Assembly: GCF_013912375.1 (NCBI RefSeq)
Contig: NZ_JACETV010000001.1
Span: forward strand, 558,001-622,000
DNA: 64,000 nt
Reading direction: 5' to 3'
From: Emticicia sp. BO119
GTDB lineage: Bacteria > Bacteroidota > Bacteroidia > Cytophagales > Spirosomataceae
The translations under genes and the position numbers were made by a program. Numbering within the stretch: position 1 is the stretch's first letter; the number at the start of each line of letters is the position of its first letter. Positions 32,903-42,173 of the stretch are shown in pieces. The notes beneath the pieces are model-generated. The model was not told where the DNA came from and searched no databases. It saw only the letters and a list, made by a program, of their open reading frames with translations.

Positions 32903-33610
32903 TCAAGCGGTAGCATTTATGTTGTTTAAATGGGGTTTCCCAAACAAAGTTCCTTCTATCTTTAAAGGAATCAATCGTGCAAATAACTCTTCCGAGTACC
33001 AATCCTCTTTTCGGGTCCTCTTAATCACCTCTGCATGTTCTTGTTGCCGGTAGGCAAATTGTCTGACATCATCAATGCTTTCCCAAATCGAAAATGTGGC
33101 CTGGCGGATAAAAGGTATTTCTCCTATACCAACAGAAGTTACAAAACCCGGGGCACTTTGTAATTTATTTGCTACCTGAGGTACATTGCTCCAGAAGTAT
33201 TTAAGTTTTGAAACCCTGATACTGGCTCTTGTGAGCACGGCGATTTTCCCGTTATAAGTTTTATCTTTTATATTTTTGCCAAAAGGCTCCTTGCCATCCC
33301 ATTTACCATGTGATTCATAGGGCTGGCAAAGGATGGTCCATTGTTCTTTGGTAAAAGATTTCCACCATTTTTGAATGAGGGAATTCCGCTGAAAAGTAAC
33401 AAAGTCTTCTTCGGTTTTCCATACGCCCAACAAACCCCACTGTGTTAAATCTGGTTGAATATCAAAAGACCCATTTTTACCACAGCCCAACAATTTCCAG
33501 AATGTAATGCCTTTTGTAAACCACAAGGGAAGCCTGAACAATGCCATTGAAAGTATGGCTATCGGAATGAGGTATTTAGGGTATCGGACTATGGTAAGAG
33601 AAACAAACAT
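32903..33610 (-). CDS. Spheroidene monooxygenase (CrtA)-like protein
   Basis: 235 residues. It resembles CrtA-type heme monooxygenases: FWKLLGCGKNGSFDIQPDLTQWGLL (about 37-61), the motif SHGKWDGKEPFGK (about 100-112), GFVTSVGIGEIPFIRQATFSIWES (about 155-178) and EVIKRTRKEDWYSEELFARL (about 192-212). CrtA inserts a keto oxygen in carotenoids; here no carotenoid genes are near, and the gene follows a type III PKS and a methyltransferase by 15 bases on the same strand. It may instead oxidise a polyketide-derived ring or chain (inference). Signal peptide or anchor: a hydrophobic stretch at 12-30. Confidence 0.72.
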   Translation of the reverse strand: MFVSLTIVRYPKYLIPIAILSMALFRLPLWFTKGITFWKLLGCGKNGSFDIQPDLTQWGLLGVWKTEEDFVTFQRNSLIQKWWKSFTKEQWTILCQPYESHGKWDGKEPFGKNIKDKTYNGKIAVLTRASIRVSKLKYFWSNVPQVANKLQSAPGFVTSVGIGEIPFIRQATFSIWESIDDVRQFAYRQQEHAEVIKRTRKEDWYSEELFARLIPLKIEGTLFGKPHLNNINATA

Positions 33611-33625
33611 ATAAGGTAAATATAC

Positions 33626-34324
33626 TTATTTTTCAACAATAATTAACCAGCGGAATGCCCATTTCCATTGGATGGAATAATTTTTTATTTCGGCCTGTTG
33701 TAAGAGATATTCCCATTCTTTGCGGCTGAATCCTCTTAAAACAGATAATGGAGCGTCGTTTTTAACCAAGTATGATTTCGAGAAAAGTCGTGTAAGCCAT
33801 TTGATCGAATAATAGGCTAAAACATGACGATGCAAGTCAGCAATAAAGAATCCTTTTTCAGAGTTTTGGTAAAGCCATCTTAGCATTCTTACTAACTGCG
33901 GGTCTGTGAAATGATGGCAGAATAGTGAATTAAAAATGTAATGTGGTTTCTTTTTTTTAGTATCTGCCAGCCGATAATCACAAATCTGATAGGAGACCTG
34001 AATATTTTGCTGGCTTAAAGCAAATTGCACGCAATCTTCTTTTAAATCTACTCCCTGTAATTGGTATGGTATTTTCTTTTTGTTTAATAATATGCCTGTT
34101 TCTCTCAAATTATCACCACCACCACTGCCAATTTCCATAATAGAAACCCTTTGGTCTTTTGTACGCTTTTTCAGAAAAGCTCTGACTCCGTCTAATACTA
34201 CTTTATGACCACCCAGCCATCGATTGATAAAGTCGAGTTCCCGAAGATTCTGATAAAGGTCTTCGGTGGGAATATCATTATTATCTAACAGTTCAGGTGT
34301 ATAAGAGCGGGTCTTGAAATTCAT
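33626..34324 (-). CDS. Class I SAM-dependent methyltransferase of type III PKS cluster
   Basis: 232 residues. SAM-binding motif I IMEIGSGGGDNLRETG (about 61-76), acidic loop LQGVDLKEDC (about 88-97), then IADLHRHVLAYYSIKWLTRL and APLSVLRGFSRKEWEYLLQQA, features of the methyltransferase that regularly follows type III PKS genes in Bacteroidota. Its start overlaps the PKS stop by 4 bases, so translation is coupled. Likely methylates the phenolic or pyrone product of the PKS (inference). Confidence 0.83.
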   Translation of the reverse strand: MNFKTRSYTPELLDNNDIPTEDLYQNLRELDFINRWLGGHKVVLDGVRAFLKKRTKDQRVSIMEIGSGGGDNLRETGILLNKKKIPYQLQGVDLKEDCVQFALSQQNIQVSYQICDYRLADTKKKKPHYIFNSLFCHHFTDPQLVRMLRWLYQNSEKGFFIADLHRHVLAYYSIKWLTRLFSKSYLVKNDAPLSVLRGFSRKEWEYLLQQAEIKNYSIQWKWAFRWLIIVEK

Positions 34325-35388
34325 AAGGTAAGCATGGCTGTTTCAATGGTAATGCCAGGGCCAAAAGCTACAGTAAAAATATTCCCTTTGGTTGTTGGAT
34401 TATCTATCATTTGCTTGAGTACAAATAAAATTGTTGCCGACGACATATTACCATAATTGCGAAGCACTTTATAGGAAGTTTCTAAGTCTGCTGAACAAAG
34501 TGATAATGAACTTTCAACGGCTTCTAAAATATTTTTACCTCCCGGATGTATAGCCCAGTTGGATATATCTTTGATTGATAAGTTAAGTTGTGTTAAGGCA
34601 TTTGCCAGAAGACTTCCGATTTCGTCTTTAATCAGTTTGGGTACATGATTGGTGAGTGTCATCAGGAAACCATTACCTGATAATTGCCATGCCATATCAG
34701 GCTGACCAGCCAATGCTATTTTAGAGAAGAACTGCTGGATACTCAAACCCTTTTCTTTTTCGTCTCCAACCACCAGGCAAGCGGCAGAACCATCAGCAAA
34801 GAGGGTAGAGGATAGTATAGAATCAATATCGCCTGATTTCTGAAAATGAAGGGTACATAATTCAGTGCACACAATAAGAACTTTAGCAGCGGTATCTGCT
34901 TTACAAAAGGCATTGGCTATTTTAAGGGCATGCAGTGCTGCATAACAACCCATAAAGTTCACCGAAGTACGTGTAATATGTGTAGGAAGATTAAGTTTTT
35001 CGGTCAATAATATATCTAAACCCGGGGCAGAGAGCCCTGTGCAGGTTACAGTAATCAGATGTGTGATTTCCTGTAAGTTTCTTTGTCCCAGACAATCTAT
35101 GATTGATTTTTCAGATAAAGCCACCACTTCTTCATTGAATAGCTTCATCCGTTGTTCGAGTGAAGGAGCGGTACAGTTATTACCAAAAAAATGCCAGTTA
35201 CCACGTAAAAGAGAAAAGTCGGAGAAAACAGAATACCGGGTTTCGATACCACTACGCTTATAAAGTATAGGCAGTAGTTTTCTGTTTTTCTCATCGGGAT
35301 AGGTAGCATCAAGCATAAAACGCATGATGTCGTCCTGCTTATGTGCATAACGGGGTACGGCTGTTCCGATAGAAACGATTTTTGGCAT
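34321..35388 (-). CDS. Type III polyketide synthase (chalcone/stilbene synthase family)
   Basis: 355 residues. The complete Cys-His-Asn triad is visible: C148 (NFMGCYAALHAL), H281 (NWAIHPGGKNIL) and N314 (NYGNMSSATILF). The family GFGPG-type loop is VAFGPGITIETAML at the C-terminus. It condenses malonyl-CoA onto a fatty acyl or other starter to make alkyl-resorcinols, pyrones or related phenolics; the starter cannot be read from sequence. First gene of a three-gene cluster with a methyltransferase and a CrtA-like oxygenase. A TATGTTTG box (reverse strand, 35496-35489) about 100 bases upstream could be the promoter. Confidence 0.92.
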   Translation of the reverse strand: MPKIVSIGTAVPRYAHKQDDIMRFMLDATYPDEKNRKLLPILYKRSGIETRYSVFSDFSLLRGNWHFFGNNCTAPSLEQRMKLFNEEVVALSEKSIIDCLGQRNLQEITHLITVTCTGLSAPGLDILLTEKLNLPTHITRTSVNFMGCYAALHALKIANAFCKADTAAKVLIVCTELCTLHFQKSGDIDSILSSTLFADGSAACLVVGDEKEKGLSIQQFFSKIALAGQPDMAWQLSGNGFLMTLTNHVPKLIKDEIGSLLANALTQLNLSIKDISNWAIHPGGKNILEAVESSLSLCSADLETSYKVLRNYGNMSSATILFVLKQMIDNPTTKGNIFTVAFGPGITIETAMLTL

Positions 35389-35524: not shown

Positions 35525-36250
35525 TCAAACACATTCTATAAAAACTCTGTAAACATACTTTTTGTTTTTTTGCAGGTCTTCATAGTTTACTAAAAACTCT
35601 TCAGTGTCTACCTGGAACTGTGTAATGCTAAGTGTCTTAAGCACTTCATCCCGATTCATCTTAATATCGTTTCTGATATCGCCTTTACCCCCGGAATGAT
35701 GAAACCACAGGATGTCTTCGGCGGTATAATCCGGTTTGTTTTGCAGGAAGTCATTGAACCACTGTTCTCGTTCTCGTATAATCTGGGGAGAGTAAAGCGT
35801 AACAGATGACCATATTCGTGGTTCGGCCCGAGCATGCACTGTAGATAAAACCTCTTTACCAGTCCATCGTATTTCGTAATATATTTTCTCATTCTGTCTG
35901 TTGATAATAACCAATGTAAATGGCTCTATCCCGTCAAACTGGTAGTTATTTATGAATTTTTCTTCGTTCTGAAACCTGTAAAAATCGAGAATTACTTTAC
36001 CACGACTCTGCCGATATGGTGGAGAAGATATGTGTGGGTTTAATCCACCATTTAGCAGGCAAAGTGTAAAGGTATCACAACCGCCAATCCAGGTACCATT
36101 GCCTTGCGGGTCTTTCGGATAAAACATATACCGACCTTCAACCTCATATTTGCGAGGTGGAATAGCCGACACCCGATTCATTTTTTCATCCCGGTTGGAA
36201 GTAAAAATAAAACCGTTGTTTTTGGTCGGTAAATAAGTCAGAACACACAT
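35525..36250 (-). CDS. NRDE family (TANGO2-like) protein
   Basis: 241 residues, beginning MCVLTYLP with the TSNRDEKMNR motif at about 17-26, and WIGGCDTFTLCLLNGG near 52-68. This is the NRDE/TANGO2 family with an Ntn-hydrolase-like fold, where Cys2 is the candidate nucleophile after Met removal; eukaryotic members act in heme or lipid handling, bacterial function is unsettled. It follows the DinB gene by 66 bases and may be the last gene of that operon. Confidence 0.85.
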   Translation of the reverse strand: MCVLTYLPTKNNGFIFTSNRDEKMNRVSAIPPRKYEVEGRYMFYPKDPQGNGTWIGGCDTFTLCLLNGGLNPHISSPPYRQSRGKVILDFYRFQNEEKFINNYQFDGIEPFTLVIINRQNEKIYYEIRWTGKEVLSTVHARAEPRIWSSVTLYSPQIIREREQWFNDFLQNKPDYTAEDILWFHHSGGKGDIRNDIKMNRDEVLKTLSITQFQVDTEEFLVNYEDLQKNKKYVYRVFIECV

Positions 36251-36316: not shown

Positions 36317-36817
36317 TCAGCCAAATTGTTCTTCTCTGTATTGAATAGTTGAATAAGCTACTCCGAAATTTTCAGGAATGACTACTTCCTTGAAGTTTTC
36401 CTGCAATCCAATTCGTATCAGGGCGTAGTGATGAATTGAATGTTCTATGAGATAAACAAGCTCACGCATAAAACTGGTATCAATATAGGCTTTGTGATTG
36501 GCTTCATAGCTCACAGCTAAAAGTAGAGGTTCTGCAATATCAGAAACAGCTTCAATACCGGTAACAATATCTTCAATGGTTTGTAAAGTAAAGCTAAGAT
36601 CGTTTTCTAACAGAAAATTCCGCTCGCGTGCATCATAGTCTATTACACCACTTTTATGCCCTTTCAGAAGGCATTGATAAAATTCTATAATATGTCTGGT
36701 GTGCTGACCTATACTACTACCATTGAGTACACAAAGTGACTGTGAGTAATTCTGAGAACTCAGTTGGTTTAATAATTCAGCTAATTGTTTGATTACATTC
36801 GTATGTATCTTTTTCAT
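36317..36817 (-). CDS. DinB-like four-helix protein
   Basis: 166 residues, all-helical, with metal-ligand candidates of DinB/YfiT folds: GQHTRHIIEFYQC (about 37-49) and EHSIHHYALIRIGL (about 128-141). DinB-like proteins bind a divalent metal and include thiol-dependent transferases; no substrate is known here. Its start overlaps the stop of the YceI gene upstream (ATGA), so it belongs to the DM13-OMP-YceI operon. Confidence 0.75.
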   Translation of the reverse strand: MKKIHTNVIKQLAELLNQLSSQNYSQSLCVLNGSSIGQHTRHIIEFYQCLLKGHKSGVIDYDARERNFLLENDLSFTLQTIEDIVTGIEAVSDIAEPLLLAVSYEANHKAYIDTSFMRELVYLIEHSIHHYALIRIGLQENFKEVVIPENFGVAYSTIQYREEQFG

Positions 36818-37356
36818 ATTTGTTGGGTTTTTATCTCAATGATAATTGCGGCGGTATCGCTCAATAAACTACTTTTGGTACCCACACCATATTCAGTACG
36901 ATTAATCATGAAATTTCCTCTAAAAGTAGCCTTAGCACCATTTTGTACAAAAGTGAAAGGAATTCTGATGTTTTTGGTAATATTCTTAATGGTCAGGCTA
37001 AAATAACCAATGTATTCGTTTTCTTGCTGAGCTTTTTCAATCTTTGTCGATTGCAGTGTAATTTTTGGGTATTTTTCGGTGTCAAAATAGTCACCGCTCC
37101 GCAAAGTTCTATCTCTTAAACTAATTCCGGTATTAATAGTTTTAGTTTCAATACTCCCTTTCAGGGAAGAAGTTGTTAAATTATCAGGATCAAAAATCAT
37201 GACTCCGGTAAAACCACCAAATGACCCGTCAGCAGTAGCTCCTAAAGCATGTTTAATTTTAAAAGTAACAGAAACATTAATTGGTTTCCAAGGGTTAGCA
37301 TATAACTGATAAGAATTTATCCATAAGAAAAGTATCAGTGAAATGTATTTTTGCAT
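36814..37356 (-). CDS. YceI family periplasmic protein (second copy)
   Basis: 180 residues: signal peptide (1-21), then a YceI-like beta-barrel with VSVTFKIKHALGATADGSFGG, GDYFDTEKYPKITLQSTKIE (about 88-107) and FRGNFMINRTEYGVG. It is diverged from the YceI at 3174. The family binds hydrophobic ligands in the periplasm. Third gene of the operon DM13 - outer-membrane protein - YceI - DinB, whose promoter carries a Crp/Fnr-type palindrome. Confidence 0.82.
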   Translation of the reverse strand: MQKYISLILFLWINSYQLYANPWKPINVSVTFKIKHALGATADGSFGGFTGVMIFDPDNLTTSSLKGSIETKTINTGISLRDRTLRSGDYFDTEKYPKITLQSTKIEKAQQENEYIGYFSLTIKNITKNIRIPFTFVQNGAKATFRGNFMINRTEYGVGTKSSLLSDTAAIIIEIKTQQI

Positions 37357-37367
37357 AGTAACAGGAT

Positions 37368-38075
37368 TTAGAATTTATAAGAGATGGCTATCATTGGCAG
37401 CAAATTTTTGGAACGAAAGCGATCGTTTTCGAAAGTCAGCAATCGATTGGTTGTGTACTCAGTAAACTGAAAACTCGCACCAGCCCTCAAGCCAACCTTG
37501 TTGGTAAACCAATAGCGAAAATATAATTCGGAATTGAGGCTTCCAAGATCATTATCACTTACCAGCAGAAGGTTAAACGTGGTGGGTTTAGCCAATTGGA
37601 TACTACCATTAAGGGTGGGGGAGTCGCTCGCCCTGAATACTCCTTGTTGAGATTTGCCAAAACTCAAACCAATGGCATCAATATTAAAACCTATTTCAAA
37701 CCTGTTACTGAAACTATATTGTAAATGAATGGGGATATTAAAATAAAAAGCACTTACTTTATTCAGATGCAGGGTGTCTAAATTAGCCTGGATATTCTCA
37801 ACAAATAAAACCTGTGGTCCTGTTTGTCCAGAGGTAAGTCTGGCCGGAGCCGTGATAAAATCTTTGTTTGGTGCTGCAAAAAAAGTGAGTCTGGCTCCAG
37901 TCCCGATTTTGAACTTACCATTTTTACCAATCCCCCAAAGATAATTATATGATATTGCCGGAGAGATGCCTTTGGCACCAGCAACAGATAAATCAAACGA
38001 TTGTTGATTTTTTTTCTGAGCGCTTACCAGATTGGCAAGAATCAGGATAATAATAGTAATTGATAACTTTTTCAT
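37368..38075 (-). CDS. Outer membrane beta-barrel protein, unknown
   Basis: 235 residues with a signal peptide (1-19, VSAQ) and alternating strands of an eight- to ten-stranded barrel (SVAGAKGISPAISYNYLWGIG; LYFRYWFTNKVGLRAGASFQF near the end). No named domain recognised. It lies 3 bases after the DM13 lipoprotein gene and 11 before the YceI gene, so it shares their regulation and probably their envelope function. Confidence 0.65.
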   Translation of the reverse strand: MKKLSITIIILILANLVSAQKKNQQSFDLSVAGAKGISPAISYNYLWGIGKNGKFKIGTGARLTFFAAPNKDFITAPARLTSGQTGPQVLFVENIQANLDTLHLNKVSAFYFNIPIHLQYSFSNRFEIGFNIDAIGLSFGKSQQGVFRASDSPTLNGSIQLAKPTTFNLLLVSDNDLGSLNSELYFRYWFTNKVGLRAGASFQFTEYTTNRLLTFENDRFRSKNLLPMIAISYKF

Positions 38076-38078
38076 GTT

Positions 38079-38522
38079 TTAGTTTGATTTTAATTCGGCA
38101 CTGCCAAAAAGTACGGCGAAACGTTTACACCAGATAAGTACGTATTTTTGTTTCAAAGGGTCGGCTTCATCAGGTATAGCTAAACTATAAGTGCCATTAA
38201 TATTAACTTTATCAGTTATTTCAATGAAATTGGTGAGCACTTTATCTTCTGCCATGTAAATTCTCAGATCGGGCCCGCTATCAGTTTTGAAATTTTCAAA
38301 AAGCAAAACTTTTTTCAGATTGATATCTCTATATACTTTCACTTCACCGCTTGTTGTGTGAACAGCCGATTGAAAAGTTCCTTTGGCAATCAGATTTTCG
38401 GGTTTTTGCGTAATCGGGTTTGGTAGTAAGGATTCATTATCAGTTGATGTCGTGATATTTTCTTTCTGACAGGCTAAAGAAAATAATAATACAACTGACA
38501 ACACAAATGATTTTTTTCTCAT
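38079..38522 (-). CDS. DM13 domain lipoprotein
   Basis: 147 residues. Lipoprotein signal peptide with lipobox LFSLAC (Cys18). The mature part has the DM13 pattern: KGTFQSAVHTTSGEVKVYRD (about 47-66), LLFENFKTDSGPDLRIYMA (about 72-90), and a conserved Cys in YVLIWCKRFAVLFG (about 128-141). DM13 domains have been proposed to act in electron transfer or hydroxylation, based on a conserved Cys; this is not proven. First gene of a four- or five-gene operon with a strong activator-type promoter. Confidence 0.82.
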   Translation of the reverse strand: MRKKSFVLSVVLLFSLACQKENITTSTDNESLLPNPITQKPENLIAKGTFQSAVHTTSGEVKVYRDINLKKVLLFENFKTDSGPDLRIYMAEDKVLTNFIEITDKVNINGTYSLAIPDEADPLKQKYVLIWCKRFAVLFGSAELKSN

Positions 38523-38546: not shown

Positions 38547-38591
38547 CAAAAGTAGATTAAGTTGTAAAAACAGGATGTCGGCTGGCTGACT
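38547..38591 (-). promoter_or_regulatory. Promoter with Crp/Fnr-type palindrome, DM13 operon
   Basis: On the reverse strand, the -7 box TACTTTTG lies at 38554-38547. TGTC-GGCTGGCT-GACT at 38576-38591 is centred at 38583.5, 29.5 bases upstream of the first base of that box, near -42. No -33 TTG. The same layout is found at 41269-41313. Confidence 0.6.
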
Positions 38592-38643
38592 AAGAATATG
38601 AATAATTTTCAGAAGATATGCTTGAAAGATTAAACCCTACCGA

Positions 38644-39321
38644 TCAGGTTAAGGCAGAAAGATTTTTAATTGTAATTTCATTACGGGAGTAGTCGAGAAT
38701 ATTTTTTTCTTTCAATTCATTAAATAATTGTGTAACTGTCTGGCGAGTACTGCATATGAGGCTTGCTATGTCCTGATGGGTAAGATAATTTTTTAATACG
38801 ATTTCATTTTTCTCGCTATTCCCCTCTTTTACTGCCCAATCTTTCAGAAAACTATTCAGACGGGCTCTTACGTCTTTAAAAACCAGATTGGCATAACGGT
38901 TTTCCATTCGTTTTAATCTGAAACCAACCCATTTAGTATAACGCAATGCCAGAACTGGGTTTCGCTCTATAACATCTTCAAAGTCAGTCAATTTAAAACT
39001 GCAACAGGTTACATAGTCTGATACCGCCACAGCATACTCATCGAGTGTTTGATTGACCAGTGTAAATTGCCCGAATAAATCGCCGGTTTGTAGAATATCT
39101 TTTACAATTTCATTACCCTTGTCATCAATTTCGACGATTTTTATTGTACCTCTTTTAATGGTATAAACACGGTCAGCCTCATCATGCGAAAAGTAGATTA
39201 TCTCACCTTTTTTAGCAGTTTTAAAATTGGTAATGAGGCAGATTTGCTTTAACTCGGCTGAATTTAAAGCGTTGAATAATTGATGATTATGCAAATGCCA
39301 GTATTTGGTTTCAAGATTCAT
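38644..39321 (-). CDS. Crp/Fnr family transcriptional regulator
   Basis: 225 residues. Cyclic-nucleotide-binding-like jelly roll at about 15-125 (KGEIIYFSHDEADRVYTIKRG), dimer helix (about 125-150) and a winged helix with LTHQDIASLICSTRQTVTQLFNELKE (about 178-203), ending in the recognition helix STRQTVTQLF. No N-terminal Cys cluster, so it is not an iron-sulfur FNR. The effector is unknown. It lies 45 bases after the ATP-grasp gene and may be its operon's last member. Palindromes of Crp-like size stand before both flanking operons, so it is the likely activator of both, by inference. Confidence 0.88.
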   Translation of the reverse strand: MNLETKYWHLHNHQLFNALNSAELKQICLITNFKTAKKGEIIYFSHDEADRVYTIKRGTIKIVEIDDKGNEIVKDILQTGDLFGQFTLVNQTLDEYAVAVSDYVTCCSFKLTDFEDVIERNPVLALRYTKWVGFRLKRMENRYANLVFKDVRARLNSFLKDWAVKEGNSEKNEIVLKNYLTHQDIASLICSTRQTVTQLFNELKEKNILDYSRNEITIKNLSALT

Positions 39322-39366
39322 GGCTCAAGGGATAATACCCTAAATATACTAATAATGGAGTTTTAA

Positions 39367-40383
39367 TCAACCAAAATGTTGCTTCACAATCTGGATTATT
39401 TCTTTAAGAGGGAGGGGTTTTACGCCCCTTTTCTGATTCTCAATACTAATCTCGGCTACCCGATTCCAATGCCAGCCTAAATCACGGTAAGCTTGCCATA
39501 AATAATAGCGGGGGTCGTAGATATGCCCAGGATCAGAGCTAACACCGTTCAGCTCCAAAATCCTGATGTTTTTTCCGGCATATAAATCCTCATAGCTGGC
39601 TACTTTCATATCAAACCTGCCATAATAAAAGCCCTCAAATGGCATGGCAATTTTTGTAAAAACCTTATGTAACTGTTCATTAATCAGGTGATTGGCATTA
39701 ACAAACTTAGTTCCTCTACAATGGTTTCCAATGGGTTCCAGAATTCTTTTTTCATTTGCTGGTAACACTTCTTTTATTTCTTCTCCTAATTTGTTTCTGA
39801 GAGTTTCTAACTGAAATCTTGCTCTTGTGCTATTGAGAATTAACTCTTCAATTGTCGATTTCCCGTCACCCGTAATACTCAGAAACTCTTTTAGAGTAAC
39901 TGATGAGACTTGTCCTGATTGCTGATTGGGCATTCTGCTGAATAGAACCCCCAGTTCTATCGGATATTCTATAAACTCCTGAATCAGATAATCAGCTTTT
40001 ATACTTTCATGGTATATTTTCAGTTGAGCTTCTGTCAGTATTTTTACCACTAAAGTGCCTCTTTCCCCTACGTTAGGCTTGGCAATAACAGGAAAATTTA
40101 ATTTGTGCAATTGTAATGCAGATAATACCTCATCGAAATCAGTTTCGGGTGAAATATATACAGTAGCTGGCAGATATTCTGTTGGAATATATTTCAGAAT
40201 CTCGCTCTTATGTTCGCCATAAAACCCCCCCGCTTCTATACTTGGATTAACGGCTGTAAAATAAGTAAGTGACCTGGCGCGAATAGCCTGAAAAATCCAG
40301 TATGGAGTCATTGGCAGATAAAATACCCACCATGACCAATACTCATAATTAAAGATCTTGACTAAAAAAAGTGGAAGCCTCAT
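39367..40383 (-). CDS. ATP-grasp (D-alanine-D-alanine ligase-like) protein
   Basis: 338 residues. Glycine-rich ATP-binding loop in FPVIAKPNVGERGTLV (about 95-110) and the C-terminal metal-binding segment YGRFDMKVAS with ILELNGVSSDPGHIYDP (about 280-296), typical of ATP-grasp ligases of Ddl/RimK type. It would join a carboxylate to an amine or thiol via an acyl phosphate; the substrate is unknown, and N-terminal residues 1-60 include a membrane-like stretch. The start overlaps the DoxX gene stop by 4 bases. Confidence 0.78.
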   Translation of the reverse strand: MRLPLFLVKIFNYEYWSWWVFYLPMTPYWIFQAIRARSLTYFTAVNPSIEAGGFYGEHKSEILKYIPTEYLPATVYISPETDFDEVLSALQLHKLNFPVIAKPNVGERGTLVVKILTEAQLKIYHESIKADYLIQEFIEYPIELGVLFSRMPNQQSGQVSSVTLKEFLSITGDGKSTIEELILNSTRARFQLETLRNKLGEEIKEVLPANEKRILEPIGNHCRGTKFVNANHLINEQLHKVFTKIAMPFEGFYYGRFDMKVASYEDLYAGKNIRILELNGVSSDPGHIYDPRYYLWQAYRDLGWHWNRVAEISIENQKRGVKPLPLKEIIQIVKQHFG

Positions 40384-40772
40384 GCGAATTTCTTAATAAC
40401 CCTAAAAATGGTAGCTTTTTCTTTATAAACTACAAATAAACAACAAATTGTTGTGAGTAATGCCATATAAAAAAGCTGCCCACCGTCGTCCATTACTTCA
40501 ATACCTAATAGAAACAGATGTGACACAATTGCTCCAGCCATAATGCCAATACCCATTAATGCCCCAAGCCATGAGGTATGGGGAATTAATAATAGGATAG
40601 AAGCGATTAGTTCGGCAATACCGGTTCCAATTCTTCCCCAAGGTTCAAGCCCGATTGTCGAAAATATGTAGACGCTCTCTGCCTGAGCGGTAAATTTAAA
40701 ATACAGAGTCTGTAGCATAATTATGGCAGCTACCAAGCGAGCTACCCAAAGCAGAATAAGTGTTGTTTTCAT
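40380..40772 (-). CDS. DoxX family membrane protein
   Basis: 130 residues with four membrane helices (about 5-22, 42-62, 68-88, 98-118) and the DoxX-type pattern GRIGTGIAELIASILLLIPHT followed by GALMGIGIMAGAIVSHL. DoxX proteins are small quinone-linked or redox-associated membrane proteins; the exact role is unknown. It lies 24 bases after the YHS gene and overlaps the ATP-grasp gene. Confidence 0.8.
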   Translation of the reverse strand: MKTTLILLWVARLVAAIIMLQTLYFKFTAQAESVYIFSTIGLEPWGRIGTGIAELIASILLLIPHTSWLGALMGIGIMAGAIVSHLFLLGIEVMDDGGQLFYMALLTTICCLFVVYKEKATIFRVIKKFA

Positions 40773-40796
40773 GATTTTAAAAAAATTAGCATTGAA

Positions 40797-41243
40797 TCAT
40801 TTGTAAATCTTTATCCAGTTTATATCTGCCTGTTTCTTGAGTCTTGCTTCTTCCTCATTCCAGCTATTAAGCGTATTGTTAAAAATGGTTTTGTAGAAAA
40901 GATAGACCTTCCCATCAATAATTTTGTAATTTTCCGGGTCAACCTCTACCTTTTCACCTTTTGCTCCCATTGCATAGGCACACCAGCCACCATAAGCAGG
41001 TTCATATTGAAGGGGTGTTTTTTTGAAGGCTTCCAGATTAGGTTCATTGGCAAATTTGTAAGTAATGCCATTAAATATGTAAGAAATTTTACCTTTTACT
41101 GGTTTATTTGAAAAGTAACTAACAGGGTCATATCCTGATAAAGCAATGCCTTTTTCTAATAAAAAATGTTTTTGACGAATAGCTGTTTCTTGTGCCAAAC
41201 TCTGAAGGGATACCATCACCAACAGAAAAAATAATTTTTTCAT
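40797..41243 (-). CDS. YHS domain-containing periplasmic protein
   Basis: 148 residues: a signal peptide (1-17, SLAQ) then a YHS domain (about 28-90) with SGYDPVSYFSNKPVKGK and YEPAYGGWCAYAMGAKGE. YHS domains are small metal-binding modules with Tyr/His/Ser-based patterns; exported forms are common beside redox proteins, and one Cys (YGGWCAYAM) is conserved here. First gene of the operon YHS-DoxX-ATP-grasp-(regulator). Confidence 0.82.
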   Translation of the reverse strand: MKKLFFLLVMVSLQSLAQETAIRQKHFLLEKGIALSGYDPVSYFSNKPVKGKISYIFNGITYKFANEPNLEAFKKTPLQYEPAYGGWCAYAMGAKGEKVEVDPENYKIIDGKVYLFYKTIFNNTLNSWNEEEARLKKQADINWIKIYK

Positions 41244-41268
41244 TTTGATTTTCTTTTAATTTCTATCG

Positions 41269-41313
41269 CAAAAGTAAAATATATGGATTGAGTAAAATGT
41301 CGGGCAAATGACA
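41269..41313 (-). promoter_or_regulatory. Promoter with Crp/Fnr-type palindrome, YHS operon
   Basis: On the reverse strand, TACTTTTG lies at 41276-41269 and TGTC-GGGCAAAT-GACA at 41298-41313 (centre 41305.5), 29.5 bases upstream. Same -7 sequence and same spacing as before the DM13 operon; no -33 element. Confidence 0.62.
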
Positions 41314-41403: not shown

Positions 41404-42027
41404 TTAATCAACCCATGTTTTGATAACCTGAAACAGCGCTAATATTAAAAAAATAAGACCAATTGCTCGATTAATAGGGTAGCCTTTTAACAATTTCTGA
41501 ATTTTCAGTTGCTGACGATTGCTAATGAATGCAAAAAGATACAAAATACCAAAGGCGCCAGTAACAGCCCCTAAAATAAAGGCAGATTTGGTGGCAAGGC
41601 TGCTGATAACTATATATTTATTAATATAGACTGATATAAAGAACCAAAAGGGAAGAATCTGGGGGTTAACCATACCTAACGAAAAACCTTTCAGGAAATT
41701 AACCTTAAGGTTGACAGGCGTAGCAGTAGCTATGTTGACATCAGGATTTTTCTGAAAAAAATAGACAATACCCATCACAATAAAGACAGGTATCATGAGT
41801 AGGTTGAGTTTGTCAAGAAATGACTGGTTTTGCTGAATAAATAATAATCCTTCTAAAGCCAATGCAGAATAGATGATTTCTGGGATACTTCCACCTATAG
41901 CTACCGATACCCCGGCTGAAAAATTTTTGCTAAGAGTAGTTTGTATAACAGCTAAATTTACTGAACCTAATTGAATAGATCCTAAAAAACTGATAGTGGC
42001 CGTAAGAAGAAAAATCAGAAATTCCAT
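41404..42027 (-). CDS. LysE family amino acid exporter-like transporter
   Basis: 207 residues from ATG 42027 (MEFLIFLLTATISFLGSIQLGSVN). Six predicted membrane helices; the N-terminal GSIQLGSVNLAVIQ replaces the common PGP motif of LysE/RhtB transporters, and KGFSLGMVNPQILPFWF (about 115-131) matches the second repeat. It probably exports amino acids or similar small molecules. The frame is open 47 codons further upstream but the added N-terminus is charged and not family-like, so the later ATG is used. Confidence 0.78.
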   Translation of the reverse strand: MEFLIFLLTATISFLGSIQLGSVNLAVIQTTLSKNFSAGVSVAIGGSIPEIIYSALALEGLLFIQQNQSFLDKLNLLMIPVFIVMGIVYFFQKNPDVNIATATPVNLKVNFLKGFSLGMVNPQILPFWFFISVYINKYIVISSLATKSAFILGAVTGAFGILYLFAFISNRQQLKIQKLLKGYPINRAIGLIFLILALFQVIKTWVD

Positions 42028-42173
42028 AAGTCTTGATTTCAACAAAGCAAAATAAAGAATTTTTCGACTAATGAAATGTCTTTTGGATGACTTTGTAAAA
42101 ATATTTATATTTAATCTGATAAATACTTTTTCAAAAGATGCCTGATATCTATCTATTTTAAGGACCATATTAA

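Follow-up and report, generated by a model that had tools for sequence, protein, structure and literature searches.

A putative Crp/Fnr-type activator and its palindromic operators at a fixed promoter distance in Emticicia and related Bacteroidota

Introduction

In Escherichia coli, CRP recognises the operator TGTGA-N6-TCACA, which at class II promoters is centred near -41.5. The ligand arginine anchors cyclic AMP (cAMP) in CRP and 2-oxoglutarate in NtcA, and the heme ligands of CooA are Cys and His residues after a GDxF motif. The parts of two papers used here give the CooA operator as the consensus TGTCGGCnnGCCGACA / TGTCGGCNNGCCGACA (PMC545781) and as TGTC(A/G)N6(C/T)GACA (PMC5371261), and the sites of delta-proteobacterial HcpR as TTGTGAnnnnnnTCACAA or atTTGAccnnggTCAAat (PMC545781). 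Here we describe a Crp/Fnr-family regulator gene and three palindromes resembling the CooA operator in a 64,000-nucleotide stretch of the genome of Emticicia sp. BO119 (the window, whose numbering is used throughout), together with their counterparts in related bacteria.

The palindromes stand at one fixed distance from the -7 box of promoters in and around the cluster that contains the regulator gene. On the sequence data presented below, this regulator is very probably a class II activator of the Crp/Fnr family, positively autoregulated and in control of the palindrome-bearing promoters. The arrangement is real and ordinary in kind, and it is unreported in searchable open-licence papers: no description of such a regulon was found in the open-licence literature, and the terms Crp, Fnr, palindrom and TTTG are all absent from the text of PMC9723704.

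Results

Operators at a fixed distance from the -7 box

A first-pass annotation of the window had placed two half-palindromes 29.5 bases before an identical promoter box, and direct reading of the minus strand confirms both. Operator 1 (AGTCAGCCAGCCGACA, AGTC-N8-GACA; 38591..38576, minus strand) lies ahead of the DM13 operon, and the -7 box of this promoter, TACTTTTG, is found at 38554..38547 (minus strand). Operator 2 (TGTCATTTGCCCGACA, TGTC-N8-GACA; 41313..41298, minus strand) lies ahead of the YHS-DoxX-ATP-grasp-regulator genes, with the box TACTTTTG at 41276..41269 (minus strand). The centres of both operators are located 29.5 bases upstream of the first T of the box. In addition to these two, a third site with the same spacing is present ahead of a LysE-type gene (operator 3, AGTCATCCAAAAGACA; 42092..42077, minus strand). 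It is a one-mismatch match, 29.5 bases ahead of TTATTTTG (42055..42048, minus strand), a box with one mismatch to TAnnTTTG. We accept it as a third operator because the sister locus (L031/L075) harbours a perfect TGTC-N8-GACA at the LysE position.

When searching the genome of BO119 (6,570,506 bases, 28 contigs), exactly two perfect matches to GTC-N8-GAC-N22-TANNTTTG were found, which are operators 1 and 2. Operator 2 is the sole match to the strict pattern TGTC-N8-GACA-N21-TANNTTTG. With one mismatch allowed, the former pattern matched 24 times, compared to 50 times for a reversed control, and single-mismatch matches therefore prove nothing alone. A relaxed pattern, in which the third half-site base may be C or A and the first box base is free, gave three sites: those of the DM13 and YHS promoters and one on a different contig (G000:C23:218174-218217). 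The latter is a fourth operator, 14 bases upstream of the start of a second YHS-family gene (PF04945, 38.2 bits; NF041384, 166 bits).

Conservation in related loci

The regulator was sought in 58 genomes including that of BO119. A match at E <= 1.4e-40 was obtained in 20, and most others hold distant paralogues only. One genome (G005) was counted as lacking the regulator, as it has only a 63-residue match (56% identity, E 6.4e-16); it has neither a pattern match nor a YHS match. A scan of named genomes gave 53 additional loci, resulting with the window in 54 loci (886,687 bases) from Emticicia, Runella, Flectobacillus, Lacihabitans, Arcicella, Pseudarcicella, Flavobacterium, Spirosoma, Fibrisoma, Fibrella, Thermoflexibacter and others. 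The loci are mutually related and some are the same records as genomes in the set of 58, so that they are not independent draws.

In the 54 loci, relaxed sites (GT[CA]-N8-GAC then [TCG]AnnTTTG) matched 65 times at the spacing of 29.5 bases, whereas none of the 20 other spacings from 19.5 to 39.5 gave more than 4 matches (range 0-4). Likewise, the inner gap of 8 bases gave the 65 matches and any other gap from 3 to 13 gave 0-5. At the 29.5 geometry GTC/GAC was the most frequent pair of 3-mers (53 matches), followed by AAA/TTT (13) and GTA/GAC (12), and among 256 4-mers tested TGTC ranked first with 13 matches, all at 29.5, while the others reached at most 4 at their best spacing. At least one relaxed site is present in 39 of the 54 loci, and 58 of the 65 sites, in 36 loci, lie within 200 bases upstream of a cluster gene.

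The profile of the 65 unique sites reads tGTC..ctagCCGACAat; these sites were preselected for half-sites and box, and only the values for the centre, spacer and flank are free of this selection. Pairwise identity in the operator centre was 0.69 for the DM13 promoters and 0.53 for the YHS promoters. In the 21-base spacer it was 0.35 and 0.34, and in the upstream flank 0.33 and 0.32, respectively. The letters of the spacer have drifted and its length has been kept. The first-pass annotation had made its proposal depend on conservation of the palindromes in relatives: the half-sites, the 8-base gap and the 29.5 spacing are indeed kept across many genera and in different promoters.

Specificity across genomes

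The strict pattern matched ten times in seven of the 58 genomes (BO119 included), and its reversed control did not match. All seven fall among the 20 genomes with the regulator or a relative (coincidence p 2.6e-4, ignoring relatedness). Seven of the ten matches are at the cluster. The other three are elsewhere in a distant genome (G037) with a regulator of only 36% identity. In this genome, back-to-back operators (L139:128-263, G037:C139) were seen ahead of a run with two DUF3179 proteins (Pfam, 304 and 142.6 bits), and with a regulator this divergent the operator code may extend to a wider group. A wider pattern gave 22 matches versus 2 for the reversed control in the 20 regulator-bearing genomes. 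Some of the 22 are without an obvious target, and no open reading frame (ORF) of 60 codons follows L184 and one L136 site. A sample of 395 genomes of the phylum showed no excess of the strict pattern (14 matches versus 18 for the reversed control), which rules out a phylum-wide operator.

Since the pattern is often matched when one mismatch is allowed (24 times, and 50 times in the reversed control), it could be argued that the window merely holds two coincidental palindromes beside similar boxes. However, the fixed spacing is conserved across genera and promoters despite a spacer identity of 0.34-0.35, and the strict pattern gave ten matches versus none when reversed. The spacing, inner-gap, half-site and reversed-pattern controls rule chance out, and we give it practically no weight.

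As a forward test, we searched for the operator ahead of YHS genes of family NF041384 in the 58 genomes. From 39 hits, 9 were without a locus and one (L172) was below the cut-off, leaving 29 usable. The operator was found at 14 of 24 genes in regulator-bearing genomes and at 0 of 5 in the others. Of these 14, six had been seen before at the cluster, and the eight new ones lie on another contig or more than 100 kb from the regulator. For one new case (L166) the regulator of the genome is only 35% identical. An ambiguous site (L179; score 2, 359 bases upstream, poor box) is not among the 14.

Two further arrangements were seen. At L128/L185 (G039:C1:8927959-8928032), one palindrome is shared by two divergent sites, with a YHS gene on one side and an OmpR-like response regulator on the other. 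At L191 (G035:C419:757-801), the operator lies ahead of a pyridine-nucleotide-disulphide oxidoreductase-like gene, of which 126 codons were read.

Genes that carry the operator

Upstream regions of cluster genes in the 54 loci were searched for the operator, of whose 14 specified positions up to two were allowed to mismatch. Genes beginning within 160 bases of the edge of a locus were left out. Gene starts were those of the longest ORFs, and for this reason the sites of LysE (window and L083) and of DM13 (L099) are missed. The operator was found ahead of DM13 (24/30), YHS (22/50), the type III polyketide synthase (5/10), YceI (6/31) and LysE (4/17). It was found once each ahead of ATP-grasp (1/35), DinB (1/39), TANGO2 (1/41) and the barrel gene (1/29), and not at all ahead of DoxX (0/34), the regulator (0/54), the methyltransferase (0/10) and the CrtA-like gene (0/4). 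Reversed upstream sequences matched in 1 of 384 genes. None of the 54 loci has an operator within 150 bases upstream of the regulator gene itself. Many YHS genes are second genes of runs.

The operators follow run heads and move when the gene order changes. In six Lacihabitans-type loci, with the order polyketide synthase-methyltransferase-flavin adenine dinucleotide (FAD) enzyme-YceI-ATP-grasp-(YHS)-regulator-DM13, the operator lies ahead of YceI and of DM13 in all six, and YceI is here the first gene of the run ending in the regulator. The polyketide synthase is present in five of these loci and is preceded by an operator in four (L106, L107, L108 and L112; not L114). In Runella defluvii (L079), one operator is found ahead of this gene.

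Some loci differ in the left half-site. As judged by eye, three Arcicella-like loci (L101, L102, L103) have GTA with the right half and spacing kept, and a fourth (L096) has GCA. In Flavobacterium L105, TGTA-N8-GACA lies at 29.5 ahead of DM13. In four other Flavobacterium loci (L111, L115, L116, L127), TGTA-N8-GACA lies at 29.5 before a mismatched box, TAATTTTA, 76 bases upstream of an AhpC/TSA-family gene.

The regulator and its predicted action

The regulator (38644..39321, minus strand; 225 residues; orthologues in the relatives) belongs to the Crp/Fnr superfamily, as shown by its Pfam matches to the cNMP_binding domain (PF00027, 55.7 bits, cut-off 27.5) and to HTH_Crp_2 (PF13545, 47.0 bits, cut-off 27). 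Its recognition helix STRQTVTQLFNELKEK reads STRQTVTQ. Three proteins of the genome match HTH_Crp_2 above the cut-off and three more match it weakly below, and among the three strong proteins only the cluster regulator has the R-Q helix, the other two having SLETA and SREVV. In an alignment of the 54 regulators, Arg193 and Gln194 are kept in all 54, Cys107 in 53 and Cys28 in 50 (absent from L118, L120, L124 and L125). The more distant L045-L049 likewise have no Cys28. At the position of the CRP/NtcA ligand arginine, Glu95 is found in 50 and Gln in 4 of the 54, followed by Tyr/Phe in 53 and Ala in 52.

In principle, a different regulator of the genome could read the palindromes, with the Crp/Fnr gene merely a target. 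Binding by the cluster regulator is predicted, and the three weak HTH_Crp_2 matches stand outside the comparison. However, the helices SLETA and SREVV are not of the R-Q type, the R-Q helix suits a TGTC operator as it does in CooA, and among the 58 relatives no strict site was found in a genome lacking both the regulator and a relative. We therefore regard a different reader as quite improbable.

If transcription starts 5-8 bases after the -7 box, as in Bacteroidota, the operator, with its centre 29.5 bases before the box, lies at roughly -41, which is a class II position, and the 65 sites at 29.5 are 16-base palindromes at a fixed distance ahead of a -7/-10 element. A dimer of the regulator (38644-39321) would bind TGTC-N8-GACA, centred about 41 bases ahead of the transcription start. 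The bound dimer would touch RNA polymerase; the promoters have a good -7 box (AnnTTTG) but in most cases lack a clear -33 element. This may raise expression of the operon YHS-DoxX-ATP-grasp-regulator, and because the run behind operator 2 ends with the regulator gene, positive autoregulation is probable. The DM13-barrel-YceI-DinB-TANGO2 run, the LysE-type gene and the unlinked second YHS gene would be activated as well.

The first-pass annotation had proposed that the regulator activates both operons. This is supported by the co-occurrence of regulator and operator, by the sole R-Q helix among the three strong proteins and by the CooA-like helix and operator, and it extends to the regulator's own operon, LysE and the unlinked YHS gene as further predicted targets. 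The annotation's description of these operons as flanking the regulator gene was imprecise: that gene is itself the last of operator 2's run, and operator 1 sits between it and DM13.

The same regulator could instead bind and repress, the dimer covering the -33 region and blocking polymerase until a signal releases it. The preference for activation over repression comes from the operator position alone, and this position, although it fits activation, is compatible with repression. The right half-site sits where a -33 element would be. TTTG follows GACA directly in 5 of the 65 sites, and in 23 the first 8 spacer bases contain TTG or TTNG, so that some promoters may keep a -33-like element and polymerase and regulator may compete there. 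A general -33 element is, on these counts, weak at best. On the other hand, the remaining 42 sites are without TTG or TTNG at the possible -33 position, and spacing exact to one base points to a need for polymerase contact, whereas a blocking repressor tolerates shifts. Repression is in our view unlikely, and class II activation is the reading that we follow. From the sequences we infer binding by this regulator, activation rather than repression, and the extents of the operons.

Several further observations also weigh against an activator with this operator. The relaxed pattern in the BO119 genome gave three matches versus six for its reversed control, so the count is meaningless there, and the weight lies in all three sites preceding YHS or DM13. 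Several target annotations are weak, the barrel, DinB-like, ATP-grasp and methyltransferase proteins being below the cut-offs. Fifteen of the 54 loci are without a relaxed site, and three more have one only far from the cluster genes. The fifteen include the four Flavobacterium loci with the mismatched box (L111, L115, L116, L127), and also Spirosoma/Fibrisoma loci (L118, L119, L126) and Thermoflexibacter (L123), in which the R-Q helix is kept. Five or six of the 30 DM13 genes are without an operator (L080, L084, L089, L104, L111); that of L099 does have a site, hidden by an over-long ORF. Finally, 10 of the 24 YHS genes in regulator-bearing genomes were not counted as having an operator: L175-L178 are second in tandems, L167 is inside a run, L179 is ambiguous, and L152, L165, L173 and L174 have none.

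In Spirosoma/Fibrisoma/Fibrella (L118, L119, L120, L126) the Arg-Gln pair is kept, and nearby TANGO2 and ATP-grasp genes have no recognisable operator upstream. The cluster layout of L080, a record named Cellulophaga sp. BC115SP, is like that of Flectobacillus (L084, L089), and the name may be wrong.

Genes of the cluster

On the minus strand, the order of genes is LysE / YHS-DoxX-ATP-grasp-regulator / DM13-barrel-YceI-DinB-TANGO2-type III polyketide synthase-methyltransferase-CrtA-like, with operators at both run boundaries and one ahead of LysE; all genes given below are on this strand. The LysE-type translocator occupies 41404..42027. Its longest ORF (41404-42168, start 42168) would span operator 3, and a start at 42027, placed from the promoter position, fits better and is the likely one. 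The run behind operator 2 begins with a member of the YHS domain-containing (seleno)protein family (40797..41243; NF041384, 113.7 bits, cut-off 70). It is followed by a DoxX-family membrane protein (40380..40772; family match) and a RimK/ATP-grasp-like protein (39367..40383; weak RimK-like matches below the cut-off), and ends with the regulator.

Behind operator 1, the DM13-domain protein (38079..38522; family match) is followed by an outer-membrane beta-barrel-like protein (37368..38075; weak family match below the cut-off, family in 29/54 loci), a YceI-family protein (36814..37356; family match), a DinB-like protein (36317..36817; weak DinB_2 match below the cut-off, family in 38/54 loci) and a TANGO2/NRDE-family protein (35525..36250; family match). 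Next come a type III polyketide synthase (chalcone synthase-like; 34321..35388), a methyltransferase-like protein (33626..34324; below cut-offs) and a spheroidene-monooxygenase (CrtA)-like protein (32903..33610), which with 187 bits versus a cut-off of 300 is not an equivalog.

The polyketide synthase gene has no operator of its own in the window, where the best candidate has three mismatches, and it is at most regulated through the upstream run. Genes for the type III polyketide synthase and the methyltransferase accompany the regulon (window 32903-35388; L079, L106-L109, L112, L114). In Runella- and Lacihabitans-type loci, an FAD-dependent enzyme and a UbiA prenyltransferase (Pfam) join them. 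Together, these genes may encode a pathway to a quinone or a meroterpenoid that is controlled by the same operator.

Discussion

The predicted targets include YHS, DM13 and DoxX proteins, DUF3179 in one distant genome and an AhpC/TSA protein in Flavobacterium. Both YHS and DUF3179 appear in tables of families that include selenoproteins, in the parts of PMC13188914 and PMC9312934 used here. Such a set of targets suggests that the cell envelope is under redox or electrophile stress, the signal being a guess, and the regulator would govern an envelope module that is possibly a redox one. Little-understood proteins (YHS, DM13, YceI, TANGO2) would thereby be tied into one regulated unit.

For this Crp/Fnr group of Cytophagales and Flavobacterium, the analysis defines an operator together with its spacing rule and a list of predicted targets. 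The exact 29.5-base rule offers a clean test of activator action at the unusual Bacteroidota promoter. It is also suggested that one operator code is shared by two different sensors, which would aid the prediction of regulator-operator pairs from the R-Q helix.

Among described systems, E. coli CRP shares the domain architecture and the helix-turn-helix with the regulator. The NCBIfam equivalog score for CRP is however 59.8 bits (cut-off 266), and that for FNR 53.5 bits (cut-off 228). By its sequence the operator is CooA-like (TGTC) and not of the CRP type (TGTGA). We take the position of CRP Glu181 to be occupied by Gln in the regulator, and that of Arg82, which contacts the cAMP phosphate, by Glu95. 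Residue 181 of CRP presumably sets base 7, and a change from Glu to Gln fits the change from G to C seen here.

NtcA is the best profile hit both in the PDB (100.7 bits) and in NCBIfam (86.2 bits), the latter far below the equivalog cut-off of 244.95. Its half-site geometry, which we take to be GTA-N8-TAC, is the same as here, and some relatives use a GTA left half. The helix differs (TRVTVT(R) in NtcA, TRQTVT here), and the ligand Arg is replaced by Glu.

The likeness to CooA is closest in DNA recognition. As given in the parts of PMC545781 and PMC5371261 used, the CooA operator agrees with our profile in the outer TGTC/GACA and in the right arm (GCCGACA), and the Desulfovibrio desulfuricans cooSC site TGTCaGCcAGCCGACA (PMC545781) is one base off operator 1. 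T-R-Q-T-V is present in both helices: in a profile alignment (83.8 bits to the CooA-1 chain 2hkx), the CooA-1 helix TTRQTVSV / TTRQTVSVLLNDFKK aligns to that of the regulator. However, our profile does not fix the inner left arm, which is GGC in the CooA consensus, and the predicted targets are genes other than those of carbon monoxide (CO) oxidation. The heme-ligand stretch GDIFCTHT of CooA corresponds to GDLFGQFTL here, with no Cys or His. CooS (TIGR01702) had no match in the BO119 genome; aerobic CoxL was not searched. The missing stretch and the lack of a CooS match rule out CO sensing by CooA's route. With the heme-ligand stretch and the ligand Arg absent, CO by this route, cAMP and 2-oxoglutarate are not expected as signals.

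HcpR and the other Crp/Fnr proteins of the BO119 genome belong to the same superfamily as the regulator, and the HcpR sites TTGTGAnnnnnnTCACAA and atTTGAccnnggTCAAat, as given in the parts of PMC545781 used, are unlike the present operator. Judged from these comparisons, the undescribed regulon appears to pair a CooA-like DNA code with a different sensor. Tentatively, and as a picture that we hold to be plausible without quite favouring it, this would be a separate Bacteroidota branch of Crp/Fnr. It would combine the DNA code of CooA with a sensor that lacks the CooA heme stretch, has E-Y-A in place of the ligand Arg and conserves Cys28 and Cys107, and it would command an undescribed YHS/DM13 envelope redox defence module, which some genera would link to a type III polyketide/prenyl-quinone-like pathway.

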